This document shows, piece by piece, positions 1-4,741 of a stretch of DNA of 33,043 nucleotides (position 1 is its first letter; every line of letters begins with the position of its first letter). The stretch spans positions 1 through 33,043 of the forward strand of contig CANHSL010000020.1 in assembly GCA_947463385.1 (NCBI GenBank). The letters are read 5' to 3'. This DNA comes from Flavobacteriales bacterium. GTDB lineage: Bacteria; Bacteroidota; Bacteroidia; Flavobacteriales_D; Crocinitomicaceae. The translations under genes and the position numbers were made by a program. A model generated the notes under the pieces. That model worked only from the letters and a program-made list of their open reading frames with translations, ran no database searches and was not told where the DNA came from.

Positions 1-597
1 GCATACATTCAGAAATATTTGGATTGGGAAAAACTAACCTTTGGTGATATGATTGACCCACGAAGAGGGTTTATTTACCAAACAGGTGATGTACCGAGAG
101 GTGGTCGTAGAGGTCTTTTTGACGCAAGTGCAGGTGCAGTTATTTTCACAAAGTATTTTTATGGCGGAGTTGCATTGCATCACATCAATACGCCAGATGA
201 ATCAATGATTTTAGGTACAAGTAAGCTTCCAATGCGTATCACGGCTCACATGGGCGGAACGATACCTATCGGAAGAAGAGGACGCTACACCGATGGTACT
301 ACCATTAAGCCTGCTGTGATTTATCAATATCAGAATGGTTTCCAAGAACTTAACATTGGGGGTTACCTGAATTATGAACGTTTAAATATAGGCGTATGGT
401 ACCGCAATAGAGATGCAATGGTATTTATTGTAGGAGTTAAGGCAGATAAATTTCGTCTCGGGTACAGTTATGATTTGACAGTCTCTAGATTAGGGAATGG
501 ACTTACGGGTGGATCCCACGAAGTTTCATTCCAAATGGATATTAAGTGTAGAAGGAAACCTAAAAACTTTAGAAAAATTAGTTGCCCTTCATTTTAA
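1..597 (+). CDS. PorP/SprF family type IX secretion outer-membrane protein (5' end outside window)
   Basis: The reading frame is open from base 1, so only the C-terminal 198 residues are seen and the real start lies upstream. Alternating hydrophobic/polar strands rich in Gly, Tyr and Arg, and the closing stretch with LGYSYDLTVSRLG followed by a GGSHEVSF motif, match the end of PorP/SprF proteins. These are outer-membrane beta-barrels associated with type IX secretion and surface-adhesin delivery in gliding Bacteroidota. The short Cys-containing tail ending ISCPSF is also typical of the family. It sits 51 bases upstream of gldJ, which supports a secretion/gliding role. Family membership is fairly sure; which paralogue it is (porP, sprF or another) cannot be decided from this fragment. 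Confidence 0.85.
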   Translation, partial: AYIQKYLDWEKLTFGDMIDPRRGFIYQTGDVPRGGRRGLFDASAGAVIFTKYFYGGVALHHINTPDESMILGTSKLPMRITAHMGGTIPIGRRGRYTDGTTIKPAVIYQYQNGFQELNIGGYLNYERLNIGVWYRNRDAMVFIVGVKADKFRLGYSYDLTVSRLGNGLTGGSHEVSFQMDIKCRRKPKNFRKISCPSF

Positions 598-648: not shown

Positions 649-3414
649 ATGAAACGTTCAATAATTACAAAAATCTCTTATGCCTTATTTGCAGCGGGAT
701 TATTGGCTAGTTGTCAAAAAGAGACTTCTACTTCAACCGGTTGGGAATATAACAACATTAACAACGGTGGTTTTGAGAAAGCTGACTTTGAAGAACAACG
801 TACTGGTCCTGGATTAGTAATGATTGAAGGTGGAACCTTCACTATGGGTAGAACGGAAGAAGACGTTTTCGACGATAACAATAACCGTCCAAACCGCTTT
901 ACCGTATCTTCCTTTTACATGGACCGTACAGAGGTAACCAATTTCCATTGGTTAGAATATGTATATTGGATGAAGCGCGTATATTACAAAACGTACCCGC
1001 ACATTTACAAGAAAGCGCTTCCGGATACGTTGTGTTGGAGAGATCCACTTTCTTACCGCGAGAAATTCGTTGAATATTATTTCCGTTACCCTGCGTACCG
1101 CGATTACCCAGTAGTTGGTGTTTCTTGGATTCAAGCCAATGATTTTTGTAAATGGAGAACTGATCGTGTTAACGAGTACATTCTTGTTGAACAAGGAATT
1201 ATCAAATGGCACTTTGCTGACAAAGTGGAAGACGGAGGTGATTTAGGTACTTTAGGACCAGAAAGTAAGGATGCTAAAAAATTTCAAAATGCTCCTGAAA
1301 ATATGTTTAATACAGAAAGCTATCTAGCTGGACAATACAACATAGAATCAGGTGCTGTCAAGAAAGATGATCCTAAAAACTATAAATATTCAGGAAAAGG
1401 TTACACCTTAACCGATGGAAAGGTAACTACACCGAAAGAGGGAGAATCTTATCCACGTGATCCGTATATGCTGAACAATTATGACCCAGTGTATGCTGTA
1501 AACGATGAAGATAACTATTACCAAGGAAAACGTTTAGTTCGATTGGAAGATGGAATCCTTCTTCCTAAATATCGTCTACCGACAGAAGCTGAATGGGAAT
1601 ATGCTGCGCTTGGCTTGCTTGGTAACTTAGATCCGAACTCTGAAAACATTGACGAACGAAGAATTTATCCATGGGATGGACATTATGTTCGGTATGATGA
1701 AGAGCAATTCCAAGGTACGATTCAAGCTAATTTCGTTCGTGGAACGGGTGACAATATGGGTGTTTCTGGTGCTCTGAATGATGGAGCGGATGCAACAACG
1801 TATGTTGATGCGTATTGGCCAAATGACTTTGGTTTATACAACATGGCTGGTAACGTTTCTGAGTGGGTTATGGATACGTATCGTCCAACTACAAGTGATT
1901 TGGCCGATGGGTTTATGCCTTTCCGTGGTAACGTATACCAAACGCCGCTTATGGTTCCAGACGGTCTTCATGACAAATATGTTAAAACGAAGGACAACAT
2001 TTATGATGTTCATGGTATGAAGGAATTTGTGAACGAGTATGCACGAGTTTTATACGCACGTCATGGAAACATCGAGCTTAATCTAGATAAGAACTATAAG
2101 GATAACTACATCACTCAACTTGAAAAAGAACGAAGAGATAAGGAAAGCGTGAGTGCTCCATTGTTTATCTCAGCAATTGACTTAGTTGAAACCGTTGACT
2201 CATTGCGTTTAATCAGTAAATTCAACGGGGCTGATTCAGTGGTATCCAGACAATGGAAAGTTGAAGGTCCGGGTAAAGTTACGTACGCATACGATTCGTT
2301 AACTAAAAAGAATTCGGATCAATCTGCATCTGCTTTAGTAAACTTTTCTACTCCTGGTAAATACACAGTAAGTTTAACCGTAACCACATCTAAAGGGGCG
2401 AAAGAATCTAAAGTTTTGACGGATTACATAACTGTCCTAGATAAATCGCAAAAAGCATATATCAATAGCCAACGTCAAAAAGCGATGATTAATTCGCGTC
2501 AGGACATGCGTAAATACCAATTCAACAGTCCGAGCAATTACTACACGTCTAATGGTCGTAAACTAACGTCGCAAGATAAAGCACAACTGGAAGTACTTGA
2601 TGAGCTGAATTCTTTAATCGATACAGCGATCTTCCTTTACAATAAAGGGAATACAGTAAAAGCTTCTGCATTCATTGAGAAAGCCTTATTTGGAAATACT
2701 CCAATGACCAAACTTTTAAATTCGGACTTCAGAAATGATGCAGATATGACCGAATTAAATAAAAATGGAGAGGAGGTTAAGAGCAATGATCAAGCTAAAG
2801 ATTTCGGTATCTACATGCAAAAACCAGTTGAAGGTGAAGAACCTGAATGTAAATGGACTTATGCGTTTGGAAACGATTATTTAGATTTTAAATTTCCTCA
2901 ATACAAAGATGATCAAACCATCACCACATGGTTGTTAAACCTTCGTAATGGCTTATCTGAATATACGATTGAAAGTCGTGGTAAGCAACGTTGGAGAAAC
3001 GTTACAGAAGAGGAGAACATTGGTCGTTTAAACTATCGAAAAGATGATTACATCGATTATTTGGACGGAGACCTCGAATCTTCTATCTATTACAACAATA
3101 CAAAACGTAAAGATGATATTAACTCTGGTCGTTTAAGTGCAAAGAATTCAGTTTATCAATCTCAACATGAGAATTTAGACTTAAACAACGACCGAATTAC
3201 TTCGAATTCTTCTGGATGGCCAACCACGCTAATTTCAGATCGTTCTAAAGTATATAAGGGAGGTTCTTGGGCTGATAGAGCGTATTGGTTGTCTGCTGGA
3301 AATCGTAGATTCCTAGATGAAGACAAATCCAGTGCAACCATTGGCTTCCGATGTGCCATGGATCGCTTAGGAGGACAACCCAATTTAAATTACAAAAAGA
3401 GAAAACGGAATTAA
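649..3414 (+). CDS. gldJ: Gliding motility / type IX secretion lipoprotein GldJ, with large internal insertion
   Basis: GldJ is an envelope lipoprotein with a formylglycine-generating-enzyme (FGE/SUMF1)-like fold, needed for gliding and type IX secretion in Flavobacteria. I start it at ATG 649 rather than an in-frame TTG at 628, because this gives a clean lipoprotein signal with lipobox LLASC near residue 20. The FGE-like fold begins near residue 55 (MIEGGTFTMG) and includes a RLPTEAEWEYA motif (near 310) and NMAGNVSEW (398-406). It resumes at the C-terminus with KVYKGGSW (867-874) and IGFRCAMDR. Between them lie about 360 residues that include a PKD-like beta domain (about 505-597, with PGKYTVSLTV) and a helical/charged region. 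The product is 921 residues, against roughly 560 that I recall for Flavobacterium GldJ. A hairpin terminator follows at 3439. Confidence 0.93.
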   Translation: MKRSIITKISYALFAAGLLASCQKETSTSTGWEYNNINNGGFEKADFEEQRTGPGLVMIEGGTFTMGRTEEDVFDDNNNRPNRFTVSSFYMDRTEVTNFHWLEYVYWMKRVYYKTYPHIYKKALPDTLCWRDPLSYREKFVEYYFRYPAYRDYPVVGVSWIQANDFCKWRTDRVNEYILVEQGIIKWHFADKVEDGGDLGTLGPESKDAKKFQNAPENMFNTESYLAGQYNIESGAVKKDDPKNYKYSGKGYTLTDGKVTTPKEGESYPRDPYMLNNYDPVYAVNDEDNYYQGKRLVRLEDGILLPKYRLPTEAEWEYAALGLLGNLDPNSENIDERRIYPWDGHYVRYDEEQFQGTIQANFVRGTGDNMGVSGALNDGADATTYVDAYWPNDFGLYNMAGNVSEWVMDTYRPTTSDLADGFMPFRGNVYQTPLMVPDGLHDKYVKTKDNIYDVHGMKEFVNEYARVLYARHGNIELNLDKNYKDNYITQLEKERRDKESVSAPLFISAIDLVETVDSLRLISKFNGADSVVSRQWKVEGPGKVTYAYDSLTKKNSDQSASALVNFSTPGKYTVSLTVTTSKGAKESKVLTDYITVLDKSQKAYINSQRQKAMINSRQDMRKYQFNSPSNYYTSNGRKLTSQDKAQLEVLDELNSLIDTAIFLYNKGNTVKASAFIEKALFGNTPMTKLLNSDFRNDADMTELNKNGEEVKSNDQAKDFGIYMQKPVEGEEPECKWTYAFGNDYLDFKFPQYKDDQTITTWLLNLRNGLSEYTIESRGKQRWRNVTEEENIGRLNYRKDDYIDYLDGDLESSIYYNNTKRKDDINSGRLSAKNSVYQSQHENLDLNNDRITSNSSGWPTTLISDRSKVYKGGSWADRAYWLSAGNRRFLDEDKSSATIGFRCAMDRLGGQPNLNYKKRKRN

Positions 3415-3463: not shown

Positions 3464-4741
3464 ATGGAACAATATTTCAATTTATTCTATGAATGTTCGG
3501 GGGTCTCCACAGATACTCGAACGATTGCAAAAGGCAACCTCTTCATATGTCTTAAAGGAGATCGCTACGATGCCAATGAGTTTGCTGAAGAAGCAATAAC
3601 GCAAGGGGCAAGGTATGTAATCAGTTCTGACCAATCTAAGTGTAACGGTTTGAACATCTTTTTTGTAGCCGATACCCTATTATTTTTGCAAAAGCTAGCG
3701 AATCATCACAGAAATAAATTTAATATTCCAATCCTAGGCATCACCGGTAGTAACGGTAAAACCACTACAAAAGAGCTGATTAATGCGGTGCTTGAAACCG
3801 AACTTCAGGTTCTTTGTACCAAAGGCAACTTAAACAATCACATCGGTGTGCCCCTAACCCTACTTCGCCTAAATGCCACCCATGAAATTTCAATCATAGA
3901 AATGGGCGCAAATAAACCTGGAGACATTGAAGAACTGTGCAACATCACGGAACCCACACATGGTATCATTACGAATATTGGCCGTGCACACTTGGAAGGA
4001 TTTGGTAATTTTGAAGGAGTTTTAACTACCAAACTGGCACTTTATCGATCAATAAATGCACATCAAGGAACTATTTTTTATAACGGTGATGATCGCATCT
4101 TAAGCCAACAATTACCGCAAACCAAGACCATTGATTACAGTGTAGAAAACCCTTCATTTTGCAGGGGAAGGATTATTAGCTTAACACCGTATGTTTCATT
4201 TGAATACAGCATTGAAGATGTTATTTCCGCTGAAATTAAAACGCATTTAATCGGTGCATATAACCTATACAATTTCCTTGCAGCCGTATGCATCGGTACC
4301 TATTTTAATATCCCGGCGCATTCGATACGAAAGGGACTGGAAAATTATATCCCTTCTAACAATCGGTCTCAAGTGCTCCAAACGAAACGAAATACGTTAA
4401 TTTTAGATTGCTATAATGCGAATCCTTCAAGTATGAAGGCTGCCTTAACATCTTTTTCTCAAACAACTCACAATCATAAAGTTGCAATTCTTGGGGACAT
4501 GTTAGAATTAGGGACTGTTTCTGAAGAAGAGCATGAAGCGATCGTTGACGCATGTGCTGAATTAGCAATACCTGTAATAACGGTTGGAAAGGAATTTGAA
4601 CACATCACAACAGTTCGCACACACTTTCAAGATACGCAGCGCCTTATTTCATCTGGCATACTATCAACGTACGCGGATGCTTTAATTTTAATTAAAGGAT
4701 CAAGAGGTATTGGACTAGAGCAAATTGTACCCTTTCTTTAA
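3464..4741 (+). CDS. murF: UDP-N-acetylmuramoyl-tripeptide--D-alanyl-D-alanine ligase (MurF)
   Basis: MurF adds D-Ala-D-Ala to UDP-MurNAc-tripeptide, the last cytoplasmic step of peptidoglycan precursor synthesis. The 425-residue product has the Mur-ligase order: an N-terminal substrate domain beginning near residue 10 (GVSTDTRTI), the ATP-binding loop TGSNGKTTT at 94-102, the central domain with [11 protein letters not shown] and [13 protein letters not shown], and the C-terminal domain with [15 protein letters not shown] and ILGDMLELG. These last two motifs are characteristic of MurF rather than MurC/D/E. The length is normal for Bacteroidota. The start codon directly follows the T-run of the gldJ terminator; the gene probably has its own promoter at 3431. 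It overlaps the end of prfB tail-to-tail by 4 bases. Confidence 0.97.

Follow-up and report, generated by a model that had tools for sequence, protein, structure and literature searches.

The GldJ protein encoded in the window, by which we mean the whole stretch of 33,043 nucleotides that was analysed, carries an exchangeable module of 144 residues (470-613) on an arm of its FGE-like fold, and a PKD-like domain is predicted within this module at residues 505-597. Among the GldJs compared, a long insert at this site occurs only in the host genus, and its content varies among the members of that genus. The unusual part of the protein is smaller than first thought (about 144 and not 360 residues) but more mobile, and represents new variation in a known protein. 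We are highly confident of the anatomy and the distribution of the PKD-like insert. The features concerned are the following:

1..597, plus strand: PorP/SprF-family barrel gene upstream of gldJ, truncated on its 5' side where the contig begins; the C-terminal tail has two cysteines and ends in SCPSF
649..3414, plus strand: gldJ, 921 aa from the ATG at 649, outer-membrane lipoprotein of the gliding/T9SS track (Pfam and family models)
649..714, plus strand: lipoprotein signal with Cys22 as last residue (LLASC), from the sequence and the invariance of Cys22 in 44 rows
808..1893, plus strand: N-terminal part of the FGE-like fold, spanning residues 54-415 (Pfam FGE-sulfatase stretch, PorK alignment)
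1204..1518, plus strand: variable loop following the V-helix, residues 186-290, which evolves fast and is exchanged (alignment, dN/dS, pair identities)
2008..2067, plus strand: predicted arm helix, residues 454-473, ahead of the insertion site (AlphaFold2 arm model)
2056..2487, plus strand: exchangeable module, residues 470-613, 144 aa (site contents, tree, pair identities)
2161..2439, plus strand: predicted PKD-like domain, residues 505-597 (Pfam, PDB profile search, AlphaFold2, Foldseek, VIA-align)
2569..2691, plus strand: predicted arm helices, residues 641-665 and 669-681 (AlphaFold2; a similar stretch was seen by eye in order-level GldJs)
2719..2868, plus strand: second variable loop of the arm, residues 691-740 (alignment, dN/dS, pair identities)
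3241..3369, plus strand: C-terminal part of the FGE-like fold, residues 865-907, containing KVYKGGSW (PorK alignment)
3464..4741, plus strand: murF, conserved downstream neighbour (Pfam and family models, related loci)

GldJ is a periplasmic protein. Among the family models, TIGR03524 (GldJ) ranked first for the window protein (441.5 bits, E 4.7e-132), while a short GldJ model scored 340.2 bits and the GldK model, at 211.9 bits, fell behind that of GldJ. The score misses the curated TIGR03524 cut-off of 458.2 bits, as do many GldJs of the class, the cut-off being passed by 79 of 197 genomes of the class. By close steps, the protein grouped with GldJs that score above the cut-off, and the host genome encodes a separate GldK at the end of contig C14, beside frames read as GldL, GldM and GldN. 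Pfam FGE-sulfatase matched the protein in two stretches (133 bits), and the same two-part FGE-like fold was found with the PorK alignment blocks. In addition, Cys22 of the lipoprotein signal was unchanged in all 44 aligned rows, and the insertions at the V-helix and the B-loop are present (segments 186-290 and 416-866, as matched by us). On the model ranking, the grouping, the separate GldK, the FGE-like fold, the lipoprotein cysteine and the insertion sites, the window protein is a GldJ orthologue. GldJ is required for gliding and for the stability of GldK and forms part of the track, and the filament model described combines GldJ, GldK and GldN (available part of PMC12635249).

The host assembly comprises 2.6 Mb in 171 contigs, one of which is the window, so that a fusion of frames or a misassembly had to be considered as the source of the unusual length. 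However, copies of this GldJ that are 98, 92 and 91% identical occur in other records (L035-L037), the frame is open without an internal stop, a beta module occupies the same site in 30 of the 56 GldJs of the genus, and the neighbours of gldJ are conserved, with a PorP/SprF gene immediately upstream in all 67 related loci that had room for it and with murF on the downstream side in 77 of 77. An artefact was therefore rejected and has a negligible probability. The named relatives belong mostly to Crocinitomicaceae, Cryomorphaceae and Flavobacteriales MAGs; the MAG names of the close relatives are disparate (Chryseobacterium gleum, Chitinophaga pinensis, Lishizhenia tianjinensis, Sphingomonadales) and look unreliable.

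The core motifs NMAGNVSEW (398-406) and KVYKGGSW (867-874) stand where the preliminary description had placed them. From 398 to 867 the window GldJ has 469 aligned residues (segment sums), compared to 363 in a genus member lacking the beta module (L013), 282 in a member of another genus of the same family (L023), 155 in the Flavobacteriaceae-type L115 and 123 in L144; this gradation indicates that the insert is layered, with helices in the outer layer. Compared with the Flavobacterium type, the window GldJ does have an excess, but of about 314 residues (469 versus 155) and not of the roughly 360 proposed before. GldJs of the Flavobacterium type (TIGR03524; L115-L120) have an FGE-like fold with V-helix and B-loop insertions like that of the window, whereas their module site is empty. 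Insertions of GldJ at both places were reported in 2025 (available part of PMC12421860). A helical stretch at the same place, ahead of a conserved EN..R.NYR-like block, was recognized by eye in seven GldJs from six other families of the order. For the window protein, the AlphaFold2 model of the arm predicts helices at 641-665, 669-681 and 756-770, in agreement with the helical segment previously assumed at about 598-795. The view that the whole insert of some 360 residues is unusual did not hold in light of the order-level helical stretch and the published B-loop insertion: the unusual part is the 144-residue module only, and the helical arm is not new.

As the AlphaFold2 model of the whole protein (44 sequences) was poor, with a pLDDT of 45.5, the arm was predicted alone (residues 430-806, 53 sequences, seven helix-rich rows omitted), with a mean pLDDT of 73. 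In this model, seven strands are predicted at 505-510, 518-525, 531-539, 544-546, 561-566, 570-580 and 585-596, and the ten-residue pLDDT means over 505-596 range from 61 to 90, with eight of the ten blocks at 75-90. PKD domains made up 11 of the best 20 Foldseek matches of the arm model, including the top one, the remaining nine being antibody- or CEACAM-type entries. The first 12 rows of VIA-align, which cover the PKD part only (about 504-598) and not the helical part, were PKD domains or PKD-bearing chains (Z 8.9-9.5, 16-27% identity). A PDB profile search with a four-row profile agreed, giving the PKD domain 6aem (E 1.1e-4) and nine weaker matches to KIAA0319-like, PrtV protease and Internalin K chains. 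The model thereby bears out the PKD-like domain suggested earlier at about 505-597, with a predicted PKD beta-sandwich fold, and places it as a separate domain between the two halves of the FGE-like fold. We call it PKD-like because the Pfam gathering scores are missed, by PKD_4 at 565-596 (21.7 bits, cut-off 27) and by PKD (12.9 versus 23.5 bits). PKD domains have a WDFGDG-type motif, which is absent from the window domain, where RQWKVEG is found instead. The PKD domains of KIAA1837, ColG, PrtV and AAVR belong to secreted or surface proteins; the window domain shares their sandwich fold but sits within a loop of a track protein. Other matches of the domain profile in the host genome were weak (best E 5e-5) and fell within frames 328-1603 residues long; a type B secretion signal is also present in two of these frames, on contigs C38 and C25. 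A limited literature search gave no paper that pairs GldJ with PKD and none that joins GldJ, an insertion and Crocinitomicaceae.

The module site is bounded by NEYARVLY and INSRQDMRK and holds 144 residues in the window GldJ. In a non-redundant set of 114 GldJs, the 62 from outside the host genus have 0-31 residues at this site, namely 21-31 in 13 from other genera of the family and 0-8 in 49 from other families and orders; the insert is hence not a property of every GldJ. Those of other genera of the same family (L023, L105) share the core-block order and the arm with the window protein and differ in having 21-31 residues in place of 144. Within the genus, 56 GldJs were compared (53 from 61 genomes searched, and G035, G093 and G143), and the site is occupied by a beta module in 30, a linker of 40-66 residues in 20 and a helix-rich segment in six. 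Five of the 61 genomes gave no match at the limit used, and G381, G386 and G408 were omitted for cut or partial frames; in G395, which has a TAA inside the match, the longest frame was taken, L091 was omitted from one comparison as its site consists of X, and the X-filled G406 was counted as a linker. The type labels derive from length and blastp, 'helical' being a reading of the sequence. After trimming, beta and helix-rich segments showed no link at E<0.01. Profile comparison joined most beta types in a chain that includes the window type and its L010 type, with weak links for types C (L042/L065) and D (the L020 clade). Six rows of these two types (G369, G393, G105, G376, G374, G143) are included in the count of 30 beta modules. 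The two main helix-rich types were linked to each other by profile at 73%, and the helix-rich segment of G383 matched another by blastp with flanks (E 1.1e-5), although not when trimmed profiles were compared. With Pfam at E 0.1, PKD_4 was called in six and PKD in four of 44 GldJs. When eight other beta-module proteins were scanned singly, neither model matched and two gave weak cadherin matches; the term PKD-like is therefore established for the window type only.

The insert was mapped on a tree of 67 rows built from core columns; two order-level outgroup rows, in which the site has 3 and 6 residues, were counted with its 'short' group. Within the genus, a beta clade of G105, G376, G143 and G374 branches off deepest (100/100; sister 100/99), followed by an all-beta clade of 15 rows (94/94) and by one of 37 rows (89/90), to which all linker and helix-rich rows belong. 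The whole tree shows six label changes. The PKD-like domain was probably gained once on the genus stem and later lost or replaced; with the status of types C and D in doubt, the single gain is what parsimony suggests, and if type D is unrelated, at least two gains would be needed.

Nei-Gojobori ratios were run for 24 pairs, and a module ratio was computable in 14, the remainder being identical or saturated. The module dN/dS ranged from 0.022 to 0.348 in these 14 pairs, against 0.002-0.026 for the core, with the reservation that dS was often near or past saturation and that pairs share sequences. From these values, the module is kept by purifying selection while evolving faster than the core. 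At the same time, its content changes abruptly between near-identical proteins. L057 and L059 are 99.0% identical in the core and 96.0% and 92.8% in the other two loops but 33.1% in the module, indicating a replacement limited to the module; the L059 module is nearest to that of L056, although the cores of these two are 11% apart. Similar jumps of loops 186-290 and 691-740 occurred in L052/L055 and L008/L047, and of loop 691-740 alone in L054/L062. Where dS was computable for both module and core (13 pairs), the module had the higher value in 11. This excess and the jumps fit an import of foreign alleles, although alignment error in fast regions can also inflate dS.

The likely position of the arm in the track can be deduced from PorK/GldK (TIGR03525; PDB 9mzu, 9ots), which has the same FGE-like fold and aligns with GldJ in four blocks. 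The solved structure of the PorKN ring shows VR4 (396-409 by the numbering of the paper) in contact with the next PorK and PorN (available part of PMC12421860). Matching the PorK helices to the alignment gave an offset of about 22 and placed VR4 between the two FGE motifs of PorK; as this is the place of the GldJ arm, the arm is probably near a subunit interface. By this residue mapping, it would leave the track near the interface, with the PKD-like domain farther out. In contrast to GldJ, PorK has about 27 residues between the two motifs, and its large insertion is InsH at the H-helix (available part of PMC12421860). The deepest clade of the genus (L020, L021, L102) has 51-63 extra residues after residue 110, near the H-helix, which corresponds to the place of PorK InsH; in L102, Pfam DUF4085 was called in this stretch right at the cut-off.

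GldK of the genus was compared in 45 of 48 proteins taken, after G398, G409 and G387 had been dropped as short or cut. Where uncut, the frames have 633-731 aa, except for G409 with 463, whereas GldK in the sampled other genera has mostly 516-548 aa. In a core-controlled Mantel comparison of 45 genomes, which removes ancestry incompletely, the module distance correlated with the distance in GldK variable columns (r 0.31, P 0.0005), as did loop 190-288 more weakly (r 0.18, P 0.0005, ancestry again incompletely removed); loop 694-738 yielded no value. The genus GldK (e.g., L165 6678-8588) is poorly conserved at about 140-220 and in parts of 300-380. A GldM-like frame at L165 3898-5739 has 613 residues; Flavobacterium GldM has about 513.

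The preliminary description had envisaged a possible docking arm. In an obligate form, the PKD domain would bind an invariable component of the machine (GldK/GldN or the adjacent PorP/SprF) and be needed for the machine. The equivalence of the insert with VR4, a loop of the subunit interface, and the greater length of GldK in the genus are in line with this, and so may be the Mantel correlation, from which shared ancestry is incompletely removed. However, 26 of the 56 genus GldJs lack the module or have another type of it, and GldK is equally long (685-727 aa) where GldJ has a linker as where it has a beta module. The C-terminal tail cysteines of SprF and PorG bond to Cys343 of GldK (available part of PMC12635249). 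All 45 genus GldKs have this client cysteine, with every module type, while the equivalent position in the 56 GldJs, which unlike GldK lack the cysteine, is A, S, T, K or D; likewise, the upstream PorP/SprF tails have two cysteines and a CPSF end in 77 of 77 cases, again with every module type. As tail and GldK cysteine are independent of module type, the module is less likely to be a dock for the upstream barrel. The part of GldJ that has been tied to GldK is its last eight residues and not the insert region (available part of PMC12239597). We consider an obligate docking arm unlikely.

Just as unlikely in our estimate is an exchange driven by diversification, in which the module and the two loops would be recombined under variable pressure from cargo, a competitor protein or phage, and variety itself would be selected. 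Three sites do change between near-identical proteins, not always jointly, and the dS excess of the module would be expected; against this, dN/dS stays well under 1 throughout the 14 computable pairs, a periplasmic location is given for the track (available part of PMC12635249), and the window domain had no match in phage records at E 0.01. Alternatively, the module may be a spacer that is neutral or tuned only slightly, the outer loop tolerating any folded or unfolded filler. The site does hold unrelated contents as well as plain linkers, but dN/dS is low in the beta (0.022-0.211, nine pairs) and helix-rich modules (0.065-0.161, three pairs) and reaches 0.129 and 0.348 in the linkers, and we rate a mere spacer as less probable still than the two preceding explanations.

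We rather read the module as an accessory, exchangeable contact or spacer and not as an obligate dock for GldK or PorP/SprF. The B-loop of GldJ bears a helical arm of a kind also found in other families of the order, and the PKD-like domain was probably gained on the genus stem at one point of this arm, between the helices at 454-473 and 641-665. Later, depending on the species, it gave way to other beta versions or a helix-rich segment, or was shortened to a linker. Since close relatives do without it, the PKD-like domain would be a non-essential addition to the track near a subunit interface, where it may tune track packing or periplasmic contacts. We give this account as a whole an even chance of being correct and are more tentative about the accessory-contact role. 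A bolder version, in which the B-loop of the genus is a cassette on the moving gliding/T9SS track, with different small domains traded between species by recombination and setting the periplasmic or outer-membrane partner, appears doubtful, if marginally less so than obligate docking. GldJ is a core part of the modelled gliding track. That a single site of this otherwise well-conserved component is free to change within a genus of aquatic bacteria is informative for structural work on track packing and contacts, as the PKD-like, helix-rich and linker alternatives in close relatives mark which surface of GldJ is free, and these natural variants could be used for testing track assembly and cargo contact.

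The surroundings of gldJ were also followed in 63 further loci from the family, order and class. An upstream frame was present in the flank in 42, identified by its tail alone, and each of the 42 tails ends in CP[STQ]F (CPSF in 36) after a more upstream cysteine. The 21 loci without such a frame mostly have a short flank, although L115-L120 and L131 had more than 1300 bases; the PorP/SprF neighbour was not seen in L115-L120 because no same-strand frame of at least 80 aa ends within 450 bases upstream of gldJ. The upstream PorP/SprF looks like a further client of the GldK cysteine, beside SprF and PorG. Its gene is apparently split between contig C5 of the host genome (G000; positions 87-506) and the window start, the ends of the two contigs overlapping in sequence. 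A second PorP/SprF paralogue in the host genome (L287, on contig C34) has nearly the same tail, CKKKPKNFRKISCPSF, and the remaining tails read differ from the tail type shared by the window and L287.
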